A stretch of DNA of 32,644 nt, taken from assembly GCA_028690485.1 (NCBI GenBank), contig JAQVBD010000011.1, positions 10,616 to 43,259 of the forward strand, written 5' to 3'. Each line of letters opens with the position of its first letter. Position 1 is the first letter of the stretch. This stretch comes from Endomicrobiaceae bacterium. Lineage in GTDB: Bacteria; Elusimicrobiota; Endomicrobiia; Endomicrobiales; Endomicrobiaceae. Below the pieces are notes generated by a model, which worked only from the letters and a program-made list of their open reading frames with translations, searched no databases and was not told the DNA's origin. This document shows, in pieces, positions 3 to 18,773 of this stretch. A program made the position numbers and the translations under genes.

Positions 3-1283
3 AGACATTTTACTAATTTATCAAGAAGAAATTATGCATTAAGTACAACTTTTTATCCATTGGGTTCATGTACAATGAAATATAATCCGATAGTTAATGA
101 GAAAATTGCAAAATTTGAAGAATTTGCCTCATTACACCCATACCAATCTGAAGAAACAATTCAGGGAAGTTTGGAAGTTATGTATGAACTTGAAAGAGCA
201 TTATGTGAGATTTCGGGTATGGATTATTTTACATTGCAGCCTGCAGCAGGTGCTCATGGTGAATATGCAGGACTTTTAATAATAGCACAATATTTTAAAA
301 GTAAAAAAGAAAAGAGGACAAAAATAATAGTTCCTGATTCTGCACACGGGACAAATCCTGCTTCAGCAGCACTTGCGGGCTTTGAAATTGTTTCATTAAA
401 ATCTGATGAGAATGGAATAATATCACCGGCAAACCTCAAAGAAGTTTTAACACAAGATGTTGCTTGTATGATGATGACTGTTCCGAATACACTTGGTGTT
501 TTTGAAAAGAATATTGCAGAAATTTCTAAGATGATTCATGAAAACGGATCTTTATTATATTATGATGGTGCAAATTTGAATGCTGTTATGGGAATAGCAA
601 GACCAGCCGATATAGGTTTTGATGTAATGCATATAAATTTACATAAAACTTTTTCAACACCTCATGGCGGCGGCGGACCGGGATCCGGACCGGTAGGTGT
701 AAAATCATTTTTAAAAGATTTTTTACCTATGCCTCTAATTATAAAAGAGAATGATGAATTTAAAGTTTCTTTTAATAATAAAAAACAATCAATTGGTAAA
801 ATGAAAGCATTTTTCGGTAATTTTCCTGTTTTACTTAAAGCATGCGCTTATGTTAAAGCTTTAGGAGGCGTAGGATTAAAAGAAGCTTCAACACAAGCAG
901 TTTTAAATGCGAATTATGTATTATCATGTTTAAAGGATAAAGTTTCTATACCTGCAGGTAATGTCTGTATGCATGAATTTGTTCTTTCTTCAAAGGGGCA
1001 TTTAGGAGAAGGTATAAAAACTTTGGATGTTGCAAAAAGACTTCTAGATTATGGATATTATGCACCAACAATTTATTTTCCTTTAATTGTTGAAGAAGCA
1101 ATGATGATAGAGCCTACAGAAACAGAATCAAAACAAGTATTAGATGAATTTATAGATGTGTTATCAAAAATTATTGATGAATCAAAGACTAATCCGGAAA
1201 TAGTTCATAATGCACCTGTAAATACATTCGTTAGTCGTCTTAATGAAGTTGAAGCAGCAAGGAAACCAAAATTACATTGGTAA
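3..1283 (+). CDS. gcvPB: Glycine dehydrogenase (decarboxylating) subunit 2, 5'-truncated
   Basis: This is the C-terminal subunit of the two-gene form of the glycine cleavage P-protein, which decarboxylates glycine with pyridoxal phosphate and passes the aminomethyl group to lipoyl-GcvH. The frame is open from base 3 and reads RHFTNLSRRNYALSTTFYP before the conserved LGSCTMKYNP, so the TTG at 60 is not the real start and the gene begins before the window. The PLP-lysine motif is visible as NLHKTFSTPHGGGGPGSGP. About 426 residues are present against roughly 480 for the family, so perhaps 50-60 are missing. The rest of the cleavage system (gcvT, gcvH, gcvPA) would be expected just upstream. A strong terminator follows. 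Identification is secure. Confidence 0.96.
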   Translation, partial: RHFTNLSRRNYALSTTFYPLGSCTMKYNPIVNEKIAKFEEFASLHPYQSEETIQGSLEVMYELERALCEISGMDYFTLQPAAGAHGEYAGLLIIAQYFKSKKEKRTKIIVPDSAHGTNPASAALAGFEIVSLKSDENGIISPANLKEVLTQDVACMMMTVPNTLGVFEKNIAEISKMIHENGSLLYYDGANLNAVMGIARPADIGFDVMHINLHKTFSTPHGGGGPGSGPVGVKSFLKDFLPMPLIIKENDEFKVSFNNKKQSIGKMKAFFGNFPVLLKACAYVKALGGVGLKEASTQAVLNANYVLSCLKDKVSIPAGNVCMHEFVLSSKGHLGEGIKTLDVAKRLLDYGYYAPTIYFPLIVEEAMMIEPTETESKQVLDEFIDVLSKIIDESKTNPEIVHNAPVNTFVSRLNEVEAARKPKLHW

Positions 1284-11720: not shown

Positions 11721-11950
11721 GTCCTTTAACAAAAGCAAAAAAAGATACGATGCTTGTTTTCTCTGCTTTTAGGAATATAGTTGACAGTGAGAAACAGAAA
11801 CTTACAGTACTTGGACTTATTCCGGGAGAAAGAATAATGTTGCTTAATGAAGCAAAAAACGGATACATAACATTTGTTTTAAAAGGAAGCAGAATAGCGT
11901 TGGATTATCACATAGCAGGAGAGATTATAGTAAATGAGGTAAATAAATGA
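11717..11950 (+). CDS. feoA: FeoA family protein, second copy
   Basis: A second, divergent 77-aa FeoA-like protein. It keeps the core pattern (VLGLIPGERIMLLNEAKNGYITFVLKGSRIALDYHIAGEIIV: LGLIPG, then KGSRIALD, then A..I.V), which matches MGI.KG...RGYSLSLR.YEA in the first copy. It starts and ends with 4-nt overlaps (feoA upstream, feoB downstream), so the three are translationally coupled. Tandem FeoA genes before feoB occur in several anaerobes, where the two may bind FeoB differently. Division of labour here is unknown. Confidence 0.86.
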   Translation: MSPLTKAKKDTMLVFSAFRNIVDSEKQKLTVLGLIPGERIMLLNEAKNGYITFVLKGSRIALDYHIAGEIIVNEVNK

Positions 11951-14043
11951 AAAATAATTTAAAAGAAATAAAAATATGTCTTGCAGGAAATCCTAATTGC
12001 GGTAAATCAAGTTTGTTTAATAATTTAACAGGTCTTCATCAACATGTAGGAAATTATCCGGGAGTGACTGTTGAGAAAAAGGAAGGAAGTCTTGTAAAAG
12101 GGAACTATAAAATAAATGTAGTTGATTTGCCGGGTATTTACAGCCTTTCTGCAAGTTCTGAAGATGAAATAGTTGCAAGAAATTTTATTATAGAACAAAA
12201 ACCGGATTTGATAGTAGATGTTGTTGATGCGTCAAATTTTGAGAGAAATTTATATCTTTACACTCAGTTGTCAGAATTAGGCATTAAAGTTATTATAGCA
12301 CTGAATATGATTGATGTCTTAAAAAACAAAGGACAGGAAATAGACTGCGGATTATTGATGAAAAGTTACGGAATACTTGCCGTACCTACAATAGCAAATA
12401 AAAATAAGGGAACGGAAGAACTAATTAAATCGGTAATTGATGTTTATGAAAATAAGATAGATATAAAAAATACAAAGATTGATTATGGTGATTTTATATC
12501 CGGTCATCTTCAAAAAGTTGAAAGCATTATTTATAAAGACATTCTTTTAGTGGCAAAATATTCCGTAAGATATCTTGCTGTCAATTTGATAAAGAAAGAT
12601 AAGTTTGTACTTGAAAAAATAGAAAAATCTACAGTCTCTGAAGAGTTAAAAAAACAGGGTTTTGAAAGCGGGGATAATATATCTGACAAATTTTCAGACA
12701 GCATTGATTCTGTTTTTGCCGATAAAATATATACCTGGATACATTCAGTTTCGGCAATTGTTATAAGGACTGTTGCAAAAAGTAAATACGATGTTTCGGA
12801 TGCTATAGACAGAATAGTGTTAAACAGAATATTTGCTTTGCCTATATTTGCTTTTGTGATGTATGCGATTTTTAAATTTACTTTTACTCTTTCAGCGCCT
12901 TTTGTCGGATGGTTTGAATCAGGAATAGAATTCTTGTCAGGTTATGCAGACAAAATAATTCCTGAAGGGGTATTCCAGTCTTTTGTAGTTGACGGAATTA
13001 TCGGCGGCGTAGGCGGAGTTTTAGGCTTTTTCCCTCTGATTCTTTTTATGTTCTTTGCAATAGCTTTTTTTGAAGATACTGGGTATATGGCAAGAGCCGT
13101 ATTTATTATGGATAAATTCATGAGAAAATTCGGGCTCCACGGTAAATCTTTTGCTTCAATGATTGTGTCTACAAACGGTTGTGCTGTTCCCGGACTTATG
13201 GCGGCAAGAACTATAGAAAGCGAAAAAGACAGACTTATAACATTAATGGTAACTCCTTTTATGATCTGTGGTGCAAAGCTTCCGATATTTGCTCTTTTTA
13301 TAGGAGCTTTCTTTTCAGCAAAGGACGGAGCAAATGTAATGTTTATTATGTATGTCTTAAGCGTTATTCTTGCATTGGGTGCTGCATGGATACTCAAAAA
13401 AACAATTTTAAAAGGAAAACCGGCATATTTTATAATGGAACTTCCTCCGTACAGAATGCCAAGTTTAAAAGGAATACTTTTAAAAATGTGGGAAAGAGGA
13501 TTCCTATATTTGAAAAAAGCGGGAACAATAATTCTTTTAGTGACGATACTTATATGGGCAGGACTTTCTTTTCCAAAAATGGGAGGAGAAAAAGTTGATA
13601 ATGTCAGTGAAGAAAAGGCTGCGAGTATCCAGATAGAACAGAGTTATATAGGTAAGCTTGGTAATTTACTGGAACCTATAATTCAACCTATAGGTTTTGA
13701 CGGGAAAGCAGGGATAGCTTTGATCTCAGGACTTGCGGCAAAAGAGGTTGTAGTGAGCACTCTTGGAACAATATATTCATTGGGCGAAGTTGATCCTGAA
13801 GATGCATCTTCTCTTTCTGAAAAATTACAGCAGGATCCCGACTGGAATAAATTAAAAGCAGTGACATTTTTAATTTTTTGTCTTATCTATCTGCCTTGTA
13901 TTGTTGCAGTTGCAGTTTTTTTCAGAGAATCAGGTTCAAAAATAAAATGGCTGCTTTTCCTTACTTTTTGGACGACGGCTGCCGCATGGGTAATTTCATT
14001 TATCGTTTATCAGGGAGGAAGACTGCTGGGATTTGGAGGTTAA
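11947..14043 (+). CDS. feoB: Ferrous iron transport protein B
   Basis: FeoB imports Fe2+ across the inner membrane, with an N-terminal GTPase domain. The 698-aa protein shows G1 AGNPNCGKSS (residues 13-22), GNYPGVTVEKKEG, G3 DLPGIYSLS (about 60) and G4 NMID (about 119), then a helical linker, then the membrane domain. The membrane part has the gate motif GFFPLILFMFFAIAFFEDTGYMARAVF, the STNGCAVPG cysteine motif, FMICGAKLPIFALF, and the late LAAKEVVVSTLGTIY. Its length is within the family range (about 650-780). It follows two feoA genes and precedes a Cys-rich peptide by 1 nt. A 151-aa reverse-strand frame inside it is a shadow. Confidence 0.97.
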   Translation: MKNNLKEIKICLAGNPNCGKSSLFNNLTGLHQHVGNYPGVTVEKKEGSLVKGNYKINVVDLPGIYSLSASSEDEIVARNFIIEQKPDLIVDVVDASNFERNLYLYTQLSELGIKVIIALNMIDVLKNKGQEIDCGLLMKSYGILAVPTIANKNKGTEELIKSVIDVYENKIDIKNTKIDYGDFISGHLQKVESIIYKDILLVAKYSVRYLAVNLIKKDKFVLEKIEKSTVSEELKKQGFESGDNISDKFSDSIDSVFADKIYTWIHSVSAIVIRTVAKSKYDVSDAIDRIVLNRIFALPIFAFVMYAIFKFTFTLSAPFVGWFESGIEFLSGYADKIIPEGVFQSFVVDGIIGGVGGVLGFFPLILFMFFAIAFFEDTGYMARAVFIMDKFMRKFGLHGKSFASMIVSTNGCAVPGLMAARTIESEKDRLITLMVTPFMICGAKLPIFALFIGAFFSAKDGANVMFIMYVLSVILALGAAWILKKTILKGKPAYFIMELPPYRMPSLKGILLKMWERGFLYLKKAGTIILLVTILIWAGLSFPKMGGEKVDNVSEEKAASIQIEQSYIGKLGNLLEPIIQPIGFDGKAGIALISGLAAKEVVVSTLGTIYSLGEVDPEDASSLSEKLQQDPDWNKLKAVTFLIFCLIYLPCIVAVAVFFRESGSKIKWLLFLTFWTTAAAWVISFIVYQGGRLLGFGG

Positions 14044-14044
14044 A

Positions 14045-14194
14045 ATGGAAATATTGTTTGTAATATCAGTTGTTTTGTTAAGCTGTGTCGGGTTGGCATA
14101 TTTATTCATAAAGCATTTCAAGGGATCATGCAATTGTTGTTCAGGTTGTGAATGCGGGGATAAAAGCAGCAAATCTTGTAACTTTAAAAAATAA
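14045..14194 (+). CDS. Small Cys-rich FeoB-associated membrane protein
   Basis: A 49-aa protein starting 1 nt after feoB. Residues 3-22 are one hydrophobic segment (ILFVISVVLLSCVGLAYLF), followed by a basic patch and a cysteine cluster GSCNCCSGCECGDKSSKSC with six cysteines. Short membrane proteins with a Cys-rich tail directly after feoB are common (the FeoB-associated Cys-rich family). By analogy with FeoC it may bind iron or an Fe-S centre, or stabilise FeoB. The end is followed by a 40-nt gap with the ribosome site of the porin gene. Confidence 0.85.
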   Translation: MEILFVISVVLLSCVGLAYLFIKHFKGSCNCCSGCECGDKSSKSCNFKK

Positions 14195-14234
14195 AGTAAT
14201 TGTCGGTTATTAAATAAAAAAGGGAGGAAGTAGA

Positions 14235-15467
14235 ATGGTTAAGAAGTTTTTATGCAGTTGCGCAGTTTTTTCTGTTTTGATGTTGTCAGGAGGAAATGTC
14301 TTTGCAAGTTCGGGAGAGCATCTGGAAAAAGAACTTGAGAGTTTAAAAGAGAGACTTAATATTCTTGAGAAAAAAACAGAAGAACCAAAAGAAGTTAAAG
14401 GTGTATTGAGCGATTTGGTTATAGGAGGAGGAATAACTTTGGTTTTACAAAATGCTCAGAATGCAAATGCTGATTCAACAGATTTGTATAACGGTAAAAC
14501 TCCTTCAGTTGCTTCATATTCCCTAGATTTAGGTTTTGAAAAAAACTTTGATGAAAACAATAAAATGTTTATTCATCTTGAAACAGGGCATGGAAGCATA
14601 GAAAGTCAGTTAAAAGTTTTTTCAAATGTAAACAGAGACAGCGATGAATCTGACGGAGCAGTTTCTGTAACTGAAGCTTGGTATGAGCATACATTTGCAG
14701 GAACAGGGTTGAAAGTAAATATCGGTAAAATTGATGCTACAGGCGGAGTTGATGAAAATGCTTATGCTAATGATGAGACGGAACAGTTTTTAGGAAATAT
14801 TTTCAGAAATTCTTCAGCTATAGATTTCCCGGATGATAATTCTTTCGGAGTAAAAGTTGCATATGAATCAGATAAAGCTGATGCCTCTTTGCAGTATTTA
14901 AGCGCCGACGGAGCATGGCAGGATGTTACAAAAAATATTTTTGTTTCAGGACAGCTTAATTTAAAGCCTGAATTTATTAAAGAGAAAGAAGGAAATTACA
15001 GGTTTTATGGATGGACAAATACAAAGCAATATGTTAAGTGGACAGATTCATCTAAAAATGATGAAAATAATTACGGTTTCGGCGTAAGCTTTGACCAACA
15101 ATTAACTGATAAAACAGGAGCTTTTGCAAGATACGGTTGGGAAAACCAGGAAGTTTATTGCGATGGCAGCGATTTTTCTTTGTCTCAAAGCTGGAGTTTG
15201 GGATTGCAGTTTTCGGCAAAGTTAATTAGCGCCGAAGACATACTTGCTGTTGCATACGGGCAAGTTATTCCTTCATCAGATTATAAAGATGTAAACGGTC
15301 TTAATGCAAAAACAGAAAATCATATAGAAGTATATTACAAATTACGGATAACGGATTATTTGTCGGTAACTCCTGATATACAAATAATTGAAAATCCTTA
15401 CGGAGGAGATGCAGGAAACAACGACACAATTTTTGTCGGCGGAATGAGAATGCAGATAAGTTTCTAA
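14235..15467 (+). CDS. OprB-like outer membrane porin in the feo operon
   Basis: A 410-aa outer membrane protein. It has a signal peptide (KKFLCSCAVFSVLMLSGGNVFA), then a short coiled coil (about residues 29-50, LEKELESLKERLNILEKK), then alternating beta-strand sequence ending in GGMRMQISF, with the terminal Phe expected for BAM-dependent insertion. Stretches such as TEAWYEH, GKIDATGGVDENAYANDETEQFLGN and YGFGVSFDQQLTDKTGAFARYGW resemble the OprB carbohydrate-porin family. A strong GGGAGGAAG lies before the ATG and no terminator separates it from feoB, so it likely belongs to the metal-controlled operon. Substrate unknown; iron entry is an inference from position. Confidence 0.82.
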   Translation: MVKKFLCSCAVFSVLMLSGGNVFASSGEHLEKELESLKERLNILEKKTEEPKEVKGVLSDLVIGGGITLVLQNAQNANADSTDLYNGKTPSVASYSLDLGFEKNFDENNKMFIHLETGHGSIESQLKVFSNVNRDSDESDGAVSVTEAWYEHTFAGTGLKVNIGKIDATGGVDENAYANDETEQFLGNIFRNSSAIDFPDDNSFGVKVAYESDKADASLQYLSADGAWQDVTKNIFVSGQLNLKPEFIKEKEGNYRFYGWTNTKQYVKWTDSSKNDENNYGFGVSFDQQLTDKTGAFARYGWENQEVYCDGSDFSLSQSWSLGLQFSAKLISAEDILAVAYGQVIPSSDYKDVNGLNAKTENHIEVYYKLRITDYLSVTPDIQIIENPYGGDAGNNDTIFVGGMRMQISF

Positions 15468-15548
15468 AAAAGGATTAACGGCATTTTGCGGCTAAAAAAG
15501 GATTAAGAATATTTTTGTTATTCTTAATCCTGCCGTTAAGAAAAAAAA
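15464..15548. repeat. Nested inverted repeat with a 15-bp direct repeat after the porin gene
   Basis: CTAAAAAAGGATTAA occurs twice (15464-15478 and 15492-15506). The second copy starts a perfect 13-bp hairpin, 15499-15511 with 15519-15531, around a 7-nt loop. A 9-bp outer stem pairs TTAACGGCA (15475-15483) with TGCCGTTAA (15531-15539). Read on the + strand it is followed by an A-run, whereas on the - strand the hairpin is followed directly by six Ts, as in an intrinsic terminator. It probably limits transcription at this gene boundary, but its polarity is odd because no - strand genes are visible. Confidence 0.75.
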
Positions 15549-15569
15549 TTTTAACATCATGGTTTAAAA

Positions 15570-15731
15570 ATGAAAAAATTAATAATTTTAATAACACTAA
15601 CAGTATATTTTATCAATATAATAATCCCGCAGGGAGTAACTGCTGAAAATATAATAAACAGCGAAGTCTTTTCTGCAGACAGCAAAACATTGTGCACAAG
15701 TCTTCCTGTGTCAAGCGGTGTCATCTTTTAA
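15570..15731 (+). CDS. Signal-peptide ORF, probable 5' part of the interrupted downstream gene
   Basis: A 53-codon frame starting ATG at 15570 and ending TAA at 15729-15731. The product has a basic start and hydrophobic core (KKLIILITLTVYFINIIIP) with a likely cleavage site after GVTA, then a short tail ending LPVSSGVIF. It is in the same frame as the 1011-codon ORF that begins two codons after the TAA. The tail resembles the segment that, as I recall, precedes the conserved DLH motif in secreted Tiki/TraB-like proteins. It therefore looks like the cut-off start of that gene rather than an independent peptide. The ribosome site is weak. Confidence 0.6.
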   Translation: MKKLIILITLTVYFINIIIPQGVTAENIINSEVFSADSKTLCTSLPVSSGVIF

Positions 15732-15737
15732 TCTAAT

Positions 15738-18700
15738 TTGAAAAACGGAATCAAACCTGATTTAATCATTATTGAAGATTTGCACTCTAATGCCTATGTT
15801 CAAAAAAACATATTTAACATTATAGATTATTTCAGCAGAGAAATCGGAATAGGTTATATATTTACTGAAGGAGCTCCTGAAGGAGAAATAAATCTTGATT
15901 CTTTGCATTCTCTTACTCCTGAAAAAGTGAAAAATCAAGTTTTAGACAATATGCTGAATAAAGGTTTGTTGGGTGCTGCGGAATATTATGGAGCGGTAAA
16001 CAGAGATGCAAAACTGTACGGATTGGAATCGTGGTCTGTATATATGGGGAATATAGAAAGATACCAGAATATAAACAAAAAAGAGACTTCTTTACTGCAT
16101 ATAATATCTTCTGCTGAAATGAATTTAAATATCGATAAATTAAAAAATTACAATAAAGATATGTTTTTATATGAGGATGTATTTTACGGTAATTCCCGGA
16201 AAGATAAAAAACATTTTGAAAAAATAAATTATCTTACGGAAAAATACGGGATAAAAACAGATTCATATAAAAATATAAAAGCTTTTGCCTCTCTATCTGC
16301 GGACAAAAATAAAGAATATACCGTAGGGAATGATACAAGGTATTTTTCCGGTCTTTTAAGGAATAAGATTTCTTTCTATGAATACAAGAAACTTTTCAAT
16401 GAACAAAAAAATAAAAATTCCGAAGAAAGATTGATAATACTTTACGAAAAATCAAAATTTTTTTTAACATGTGAAGAGAACAAAAAGTATATATATATAC
16501 AAGAATTGAAGAAGAAGTATGAACTTATAAATGTTTTTGATTTAAAAGGATATATTGAAGAAACTAATACTGTAAAACAAATACTGTTTGATAAAATTTC
16601 TAAAGGAAAAGAAGCAAGAAATACAGGAATGATGAGTCTTTTTCTTGCATTGCTTAAAGATTATGTTAAGCTTAATATAATGTTTGAAGATTTAGAGTAT
16701 ATTCAAAACAATAAAGAGAAATTTAAAAGGATTCTATCTGGGAGTTCTTTACAGGATAAAAAAAATATTGCGGATATCATTGATAATAAAGAAATAGAAG
16801 AATACTATGATACAAATCTTAAAAGAAATAAGATTTTTGTTGATATTATAAAAAAGAAAAGAAGTGGGACAAAAACGGATGTGGCTGTTGTAGGAGGATT
16901 TCATCACGGTATAACAAAAATGCTTGAAGATGAAGGCATCAGCTATATTGTGATAATGCCTAAATCAGATAAAACGGATTTGCACAATTATAAAACGACT
17001 ATACTGGATATAACAGTTTCTTCGGATGCTCTTTCTGACGGATTATTGGTTATGGGTTTGTCAAAATATAAACAAAGAGAGTTTTTAACAATATGGATAC
17101 AAGAGTTAAGGAACAGCGGTTTTAAAGATTATGAAATAATAGAGATACTTAACAAATGGGCTAATTCTTATAAAAATTTTTTCGGAGCCAATGAAGAATC
17201 CGTAAGGCAAATACAGGGAAAAGAAGAGACTGAATCCGAATTTGTAAATGATGAACAGGAAAATATCAAAGAAGAGAACAATATATCAGAAACAGCAAAA
17301 GCAGATTCCTCAAATACTCAAACAGAAGAAATAGATTTGTCTGAAGTTGTAAAAGAAAGTAAAAAAATAACAGTTAAAAAACTTTTAATAAGTGCTAAAG
17401 TTGCCGTAAAATCATATTTGGCAAAATTTAAGAAACCGTTTGTTTACAGATATGAGAAAGACAGAGAAAATGCAGTCGATGAAAAAACGGTTAAGAAAAT
17501 GGAATCAAATATACGATATTTTCCTTTTATACAGCTTATGCTTGGCTTTGAACTTGCTTCATCTTTCTCAACAATATTCATGCAGTCAAGCGGATATGAA
17601 TTAAATTTAATCGCCGTAATATTTTCATTCCTTGCTCCTGCCAGTTTCGTTTTTTCGGGATTTTTTGGATTTTTGGGAGACAGAATTCCAAAGAGAACAA
17701 TGCTTATATTGTCGTTGCTTCTCCATACATTGGGAAGCGTTAGTTTTACTGTTATACAATTCTCTCCGGTTCTGTTTATTGCTTCTCAGATTTTGCCTGT
17801 AATAGGAATAGCCGGTCTTGATATAAGTCTCAGTCCATTTCTTTATAAATCTCTTGACAGACTGAAGAAGAAAGAATCTTTTAAGGAAATATATGGGCTG
17901 AATCTCGGTTTATTTTGGATTACTATGTCGTTGTCATCTCTTATAGGAGGAACTCTCGCATTTTTTGTCGGACAGCATATAGTTGTTATAATAGCCGCAA
18001 TGCTTGATGTTGCTGTTTTTGTCGGATCTTTATTCTTTACACATAAAGAAAGCGACGGTAAAGTTGAAAAAGAAGAAGTAAAAGAAGAAACTGGCTGTAA
18101 GAAAAATCGCATTTCTCAAATTTTCAGTCCTTTGAGAGCTCTTTTTACTGATAGAAAAACTTTTATGTCCGTTATTATAAATATGGTGGTAAACAATATA
18201 TTCTTTGTATCGTTAGCATTCTTTTTACAACCTTTATTTATATCAAGCGGATTAAGTGCCATATTTCTTGCGCCTATTTATTTTGCTGCAAATGTACTTC
18301 AGTCGATGGCGTCTCATTTTATAAGCAGATTCGGAATTATTGCGGAAAAGAAACTCTACAGAACATTATTCTTAAGCAGCGCTCTTGTAATGACAGCTCT
18401 TTTTGCTGTTACCGCTCATCCTGTATTTTTATTTGCCGTATATGTTTCAATGAATTTTTGGCAGGGAACAGCTTCTTTAACTGAAGTTTCGTCTGTTTAT
18501 GAAATTCTTGATGATAATATGAGGTCTAAATGGCTTGCATTTAAATCAATGGCAGGCACGGTTGTGGCAAGTTTTACACAAATAGCCATAAGCGGACTTC
18601 TTTCTTTAGGAATAACAGGAGATATGATTATTACGGTTGCCATTTCAGTTGCGGTATTTGCTTCGGTAGTAATACCTAAAATATTTGCAGAAAGACATAA

Positions 18701-18773
18701 GAAACATAAAGAAGTTTTTGAAGCAATAAATATTGATACCAGATATATAAATGCTATTTTAGCTTCCGCATAA
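15738..18773 (+). CDS. Tiki/TraB/ChaN-like domain fused to an MFS transporter, separated from its signal peptide by a stop codon
   Basis: A 1011-aa fusion. Residues about 1-480 look like the Tiki/TraB/ChaN superfamily: IIIEDLHSN (10-18), FTEGAPEGE (about 42-50), GAAEYYGAV, and a late VAVVGGFHHG (about 381) with paired histidines. Residues about 490-545 are a charged linker rich in Glu and Lys. Residues about 593-990 are a 12-helix MFS transporter with motif A GFLGDRIPKR (about 645) after helix 2 and a long charged loop between helices 6 and 7. The only available start is a TTG 6 nt after an in-frame TAA, without a ribosome site; the next Met is at residue 53. The open frame is otherwise intact. 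Substrate and activity are unknown; the ferrous iron neighbours suggest a metal or haem role, which is speculation. Confidence 0.7.
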   Translation: MKNGIKPDLIIIEDLHSNAYVQKNIFNIIDYFSREIGIGYIFTEGAPEGEINLDSLHSLTPEKVKNQVLDNMLNKGLLGAAEYYGAVNRDAKLYGLESWSVYMGNIERYQNINKKETSLLHIISSAEMNLNIDKLKNYNKDMFLYEDVFYGNSRKDKKHFEKINYLTEKYGIKTDSYKNIKAFASLSADKNKEYTVGNDTRYFSGLLRNKISFYEYKKLFNEQKNKNSEERLIILYEKSKFFLTCEENKKYIYIQELKKKYELINVFDLKGYIEETNTVKQILFDKISKGKEARNTGMMSLFLALLKDYVKLNIMFEDLEYIQNNKEKFKRILSGSSLQDKKNIADIIDNKEIEEYYDTNLKRNKIFVDIIKKKRSGTKTDVAVVGGFHHGITKMLEDEGISYIVIMPKSDKTDLHNYKTTILDITVSSDALSDGLLVMGLSKYKQREFLTIWIQELRNSGFKDYEIIEILNKWANSYKNFFGANEESVRQIQGKEETESEFVNDEQENIKEENNISETAKADSSNTQTEEIDLSEVVKESKKITVKKLLISAKVAVKSYLAKFKKPFVYRYEKDRENAVDEKTVKKMESNIRYFPFIQLMLGFELASSFSTIFMQSSGYELNLIAVIFSFLAPASFVFSGFFGFLGDRIPKRTMLILSLLLHTLGSVSFTVIQFSPVLFIASQILPVIGIAGLDISLSPFLYKSLDRLKKKESFKEIYGLNLGLFWITMSLSSLIGGTLAFFVGQHIVVIIAAMLDVAVFVGSLFFTHKESDGKVEKEEVKEETGCKKNRISQIFSPLRALFTDRKTFMSVIINMVVNNIFFVSLAFFLQPLFISSGLSAIFLAPIYFAANVLQSMASHFISRFGIIAEKKLYRTLFLSSALVMTALFAVTAHPVFLFAVYVSMNFWQGTASLTEVSSVYEILDDNMRSKWLAFKSMAGTVVASFTQIAISGLLSLGITGDMIITVAISVAVFASVVIPKIFAERHKKHKEVFEAINIDTRYINAILASA

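Follow-up and report, generated by a model that had tools for sequence, protein, structure and literature searches.

An in-frame stop codon in an Endomicrobiaceae gene that joins a signal peptide and a Tiki/ChaN-like domain to an MFS transporter

The ChaN branch of the Tiki superfamily (PF04187, haem-binding uptake) and the Tet/Bcr-type efflux carriers of the MFS are the described systems most like the two halves of the protein discussed here. Its N-terminal domain has the ChaN motif order [D/E]xH - E - N..F/M..I - GxxH, but differs from that branch in its length of ~400 residues, its large helical insertion and the absence of a direct Pfam match over the cut-off. Its C-terminal half matches MFS_1 and has the GDRxPKR loop but, unlike the Tet/Bcr-type carriers, follows a signal peptide and a Tiki-like domain in one fused protein. 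The state of the gene recalls the young nonsense pseudogenes of bacteria, which likewise have one premature stop, a frame otherwise intact, intact relatives and no decay yet; from these it shows no essential difference, the stop base here being known from one MAG consensus.

The window, by which we mean the whole 32,644-nucleotide stretch of DNA that was analysed, lies at C73:10616-43259 in a 1.63-Mb MAG of 122 contigs with N gaps. The nearest genome compared, referred to below as the sister species, is Candidatus Praeruminimicrobium purgamenti, of the same genus (Endomicrobiaceae, Elusimicrobiota). The Candidatus Praeruminimicrobium lineage has been described from anaerobic digesters (PMC11257099).

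The interrupted gene and its relatives

The gene starts with the ATG at 15570-15572 and runs for 53 codons (MKKLIILITLTVYFINIIIPQGVTAENIINSEVFSADSKTLCTSLPVSSGVIF) up to an in-frame TAA, past which the frame stays open, SNLKNGIKPDLIIIEDLH through to the TAA at 18771-18773, just as the first-pass annotation had described it. The earliest possible restart is a TTG 6 nt 3' of the premature TAA, which would give a 1011-aa ORF (Table 1). In the sister species the orthologue (L009:4833-8042, on JAHDQW010000001.1) is a single intact ORF of 1069 aa between the porin gene and hisD, and the order porin - gene - hisD is common to both species. The whole window frame of 1068 codons aligns codon by codon with this ORF, from which it differs by two small in-frame indels, and the two proteins are 88% identical from the signal peptide through the C-terminus. 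The 53 codons on the 5' side match the start of the sister gene (88% over residues 12-53), and codon 54 encodes Glu there. Since the upstream codons align with the sister gene, the full frame aligns and, of the matches listed in the family-wide search, the window copy alone has an internal stop, the open frame is more than chance, and the proposal that the two pieces were one ancestral protein is upheld.

Table 1. Features of the interrupted gene and its 5' neighbourhood (window coordinates)
Feature	Position	Strand	Basis or comparison
OprB-type porin, intact, 5' neighbour in the low-divergence island	14235..15467	+	PF04966 E 1.4e-25; dS 0.116
Hairpin between porin and gene, kept in sister species	15474..15540	+	-23.8 kcal/mol, z -3.3; sequence comparison
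5' fragment: 53 codons (hydrophobic signal peptide, then LPVSSGVIF) and premature TAA	15570..15731	+	Aligns with residues 1-53 of intact L009:4833-8042
Premature in-frame TAA, codon 54	15729..15731	+	Glu in sister species; Glu/Asp in 14/15 intact relatives
3' fragment: 1011 open codons, candidate TTG restart at 15738 without Shine-Dalgarno sequence	15738..18773	+	
N-terminal Tiki/ChaN-like domain: predicted beta-strands with large helical insertion	15762..17006	+	Alignment, AlphaFold2 model, PF04187 bridge
N-domain motifs, intact: D14-L-H16; E44-G45; GGFH	15777-15785; 15867-15872; 16893-16904	+	
MFS transporter domain, Tet/Bcr-type most alike	17526..18689	+	PF07690 E 2.4e-16; weak NCBIfam Tet/Bcr; hydropathy

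A sense codon stands at the stop column in all 15 intact relatives of a 16-sequence alignment, counted by eye: nine have Glu, five Asp and one Ser. The stretch G-x-[IVL]-x-[ED] is found in nearly all intact relatives examined, and an intact paralogue in the same genome (G000:C104, 48-57% identity) carries the same GRIFE stretch. When 77 family genomes were searched with the intact protein, an internal stop was present, among the matches listed, in the window copy only. No intact relative examined is interrupted at the codon-54 column or starts at the equivalent of the TTG, and an N-terminal hydrophobic signal is present in every one of them, stand-alone N-domain genes included, so that neither TTG-started homologues nor unrelated 5' sequence, which would have spoken against an ancestral fusion, came to light. 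In some relatives the gene is split or partly lost, but not at codon 54: either the break falls where the N-domain meets the MFS half, or the N-domain has gone.

Separate neighbouring genes for the two halves occur at G019:C15, G004:C100, G098:C45, G099:C133 and G097:C4, and in the two split pairs that were read each half still has a hydrophobic segment at its N-terminus. A short open frame that retains the MFS half occurs at G019:C3, G097:C70 and G099:C86, loss of the N-domain having been read in one of them (G019:C3). The intact paralogues G000:C104:55903-59037 and G001:C8:196764-199835 lie in a gene order conserved in both species and have a mutual identity of only 54%, most of the genes that flank them being ~75-90% identical; the pair may have either diverged unusually fast or undergone replacement.

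Domain identity, topology and the position of the cut

The residues H16, E44 and GGFH 386-389 are invariant in the 16 sequences, and their order is that of the ChaN proteins L135-L139. The AlphaFold2 model of the N-domain has a pLDDT of 82.7. Searched with PF04187, the window protein gave no match and one of the 16 family members gave E 0.19, below the cut-off, and a direct profile comparison of the N-domain with the five ChaN proteins was not significant. A bridge is provided by L140, a 4034-aa ORF of another Elusimicrobiota genome, which exceeds the PF04187 cut-off (31.2 bits against 27.7) and whose domain matches the N-domain profile at E 4e-36; we therefore call the N-domain Tiki/ChaN-like, an assignment that the motifs and this one bridging sequence suggest. 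The name Tiki in the first-pass annotation is thus partly supported, at the level of the superfamily, by the bridge and the motif order, though not by a direct match, and the name TraB is not supported, as PF01963 (TraB/PrgY/GumN) reached at best E 0.074 in one of 16 members and had no match in the source genome. A PDB profile search with the N-domain gave no match, and the best Foldseek match, 2rad_A, an erythromycin-esterase-like protein, was not significant (E 0.27, probability 0.60, TM 0.20).

The MFS half scores 60 bits against a PF07690 (MFS_1) cut-off of 33.4 and by hydropathy shows 11 clear hydrophobic segments, with 12 in all being likely. The Tet profiles that match it do so weakly, with scores well short of the cut-off, so a drug-resistance function is not implied. 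Stand-alone N-domain genes in relatives encode a hydrophobic N-terminus and no further membrane segment, a pattern consistent with export of the domain. In the intact sister protein (L009:4833-8042, residues 23-652) nothing that is clearly a membrane segment lies between the signal and MFS helix 1, and the charges in the MFS loops require a cytoplasmic N-side, contrary to the N-terminal signal; because of this conflict the location of the N-domain is ambiguous even in the intact protein. The same exported Tiki/ChaN-like domain also occurs in very long ORFs, of 2427-4446 aa in the source genome and of as many as 11894 aa in a relative from its order (G000:C97, C11 and C7; G037:C17:65477-66772; G039:C14; G038:C28). 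A literature search on these proteins in Elusimicrobiota found nothing relevant.

Signal-peptide cleavage is likely after residue 25 (between GVTA and EN, judged by eye), and the premature stop lies ~28 residues beyond this site. The model of the sister species' intact protein, with a pLDDT of 73.9 overall and 76 for this block, predicts a beta-strand at residues 50-55, residue 54 included, and so places the cut within the predicted first beta-strand of the N-domain, beyond the signal peptide. The stop had been described as severing the signal peptide, which it does, but it would sever the start of the domain as well. Because it falls inside the predicted strand, a restart at the TTG (codon 57) would lose both the signal peptide and that strand. 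The gene could nevertheless work from this TTG or a later start, without a signal peptide and with a cytoplasmic N-domain, as the 1011 open codons, the intact motif residues, an MFS positive-inside pattern compatible with a cytoplasmic N-side and the lack of detectable relaxed selection would allow. We consider such a restart improbable, since the TTG has no Shine-Dalgarno sequence, AGG or GGAG being present at many neighbouring genes, the predicted strand would be missing, and the relatives examined start elsewhere. The native ATG is likewise weak in Shine-Dalgarno sequence. With the predicted first strand lost, such a start site and an ambiguous topology in the intact protein, the idea that the stop simply exchanges periplasm for cytoplasm is weakened.

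Age of the stop and alternative explanations

Comparison of four contigs (~254 kb) of the source genome with one 486-kb sister contig covered ~165 genes, among which the window stop is the only convincing internal interruption. The other candidates of this census were set aside as overlong start calls, the stop lying no further than 40 codons into an over-extended ORF. The apparent break in gcvPB was rejected as well, being a run of Ns: a 100-N scaffold gap (G000:C73:10516-10615) directly before window position 1 splits this gene, which is otherwise normal and whose 3' part is therefore the ORF with a TTG start at window 60-1283.

Single-base changes able to create a stop downstream of codon 54 number 472 of 9099 (~5%), and none has occurred; ~22 new stops would be expected had constraint ended when the two copies separated. 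On the assumption of equal rates and of half the divergence on each branch, the 95% limit on the time since loss is ~0.019 substitutions per site, roughly 1/7 of the window branch. Downstream of the stop dN/dS is 0.20, and in the intact adjacent porin it is 0.205, values that are comparable within their shared island only. Of the amino-acid changes polarised with six relatives, 16 fall to the window lineage and 29 to the sister lineage, so that the window lineage shows no excess. The relaxed selection for which the downstream frame was checked is therefore not seen, and the absence of decay means that the stop is either very recent or not real. A very recent single change, as first proposed, agrees with the Glu or Asp of 14 of the 15 intact relatives and with the lack of a second lesion downstream.

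The gene lies in a region of low divergence that spans window 11947-18773. Between the two species dS is 0.116 for the porin, 0.274 for the window gene and 0.557 for feoB, the median of 166 gene pairs being 1.47; nucleotide identity jumps from 82% to 96% at a sharp edge near 14,200 and drops again near 18,600, where the island ends. The simplest reading suggests a recent homologous exchange of the surface porin and the adjoining gene between lineages, with a chimeric contig as an alternative source of the island. The hairpin between the two genes is terminator-like on the minus strand only.

The gene may be intact in the organism and the stop an error of consensus or assembly, or a minor strain variant in the MAG consensus, and for this it can be said that the interruption is the only internal one in the genes compared, that the rest of the gene appears fully constrained and that the source is a fragmented MAG with gaps. 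An error of this kind would have had to strike one of the few stop-making changes, and ~250 kb of the source genome holds no further spurious frameshift or internal stop; as the break in gcvPB consists of Ns, this clean stretch indicates a low error rate. We regard an error as unlikely, although it deserves to be kept in mind. Local misassembly at the stop was rejected, as the 17 nt around it contain four mismatches and ~9% of the gene's windows contain four or more, so that the mismatch density there is not unusual for this gene.

TAA terminates 121 of the 166 matched genes of the source genome and is thus read as a stop there, and an altered genetic code was rejected on this ground. Programmed readthrough that yields some full-length exported protein could draw on the conservation of both sides of the stop in one frame, and yet is scarcely credible, because the stop is not conserved, being absent at this site from every relative examined among the matches listed, and TAA is the main genuine stop. 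Within the window there is no Rfam element, and none of the six tRNAs on the contigs scanned, which form part of the genome, is a suppressor. The T that follows the TAA makes for a strong termination context, which also counts against readthrough here. There is very little chance that the stop is maintained as a switch, with restart or low-level readthrough giving a cytoplasmic Tiki-domain transporter beside or instead of the exported form, in which case one gene would serve two compartments; readthrough or restart as a device finds no support.

Significance of the locus

One very recent nonsense substitution in a gene until then under purifying selection probably explains what is observed: a stop at a column where the relatives are intact and nearly all have an acidic residue, and a frame that shows no decay downstream. 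The intact gene would encode the signal peptide, the Tiki/ChaN-like domain and the MFS transporter as one protein, and translation from the ATG would now end after 53 residues, so that, to judge from the sequence, the fusion protein is most likely no longer produced from the window copy, which may be a nascent pseudogene or a polymorphic null allele. This explanation takes the base to be real and a downstream restart to be presumably of no use, and the loss may be tolerable thanks to the diverged intact paralogue that the genome carries at another locus. Against it, the change is one base in a short-contig MAG, where assembly error or strain mixture is possible, and the absence of downstream decay is equally expected of a gene that still functions. 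Overall, the case is most likely one of an ordinary freshly broken gene, or possibly of an error in sequencing, and not of a new mechanism.

As a premature stop the case carries little weight, given that fresh nonsense alleles occur in bacterial genomes and consensus errors occasionally in MAGs. The loss can be dated very tightly because constraint acted until almost now. Beyond the stop itself, the locus draws notice to the exported Tiki-like domains of Elusimicrobiota, a family that is poorly described and in which some members are joined to an MFS carrier and others stand at the head of a giant protein.
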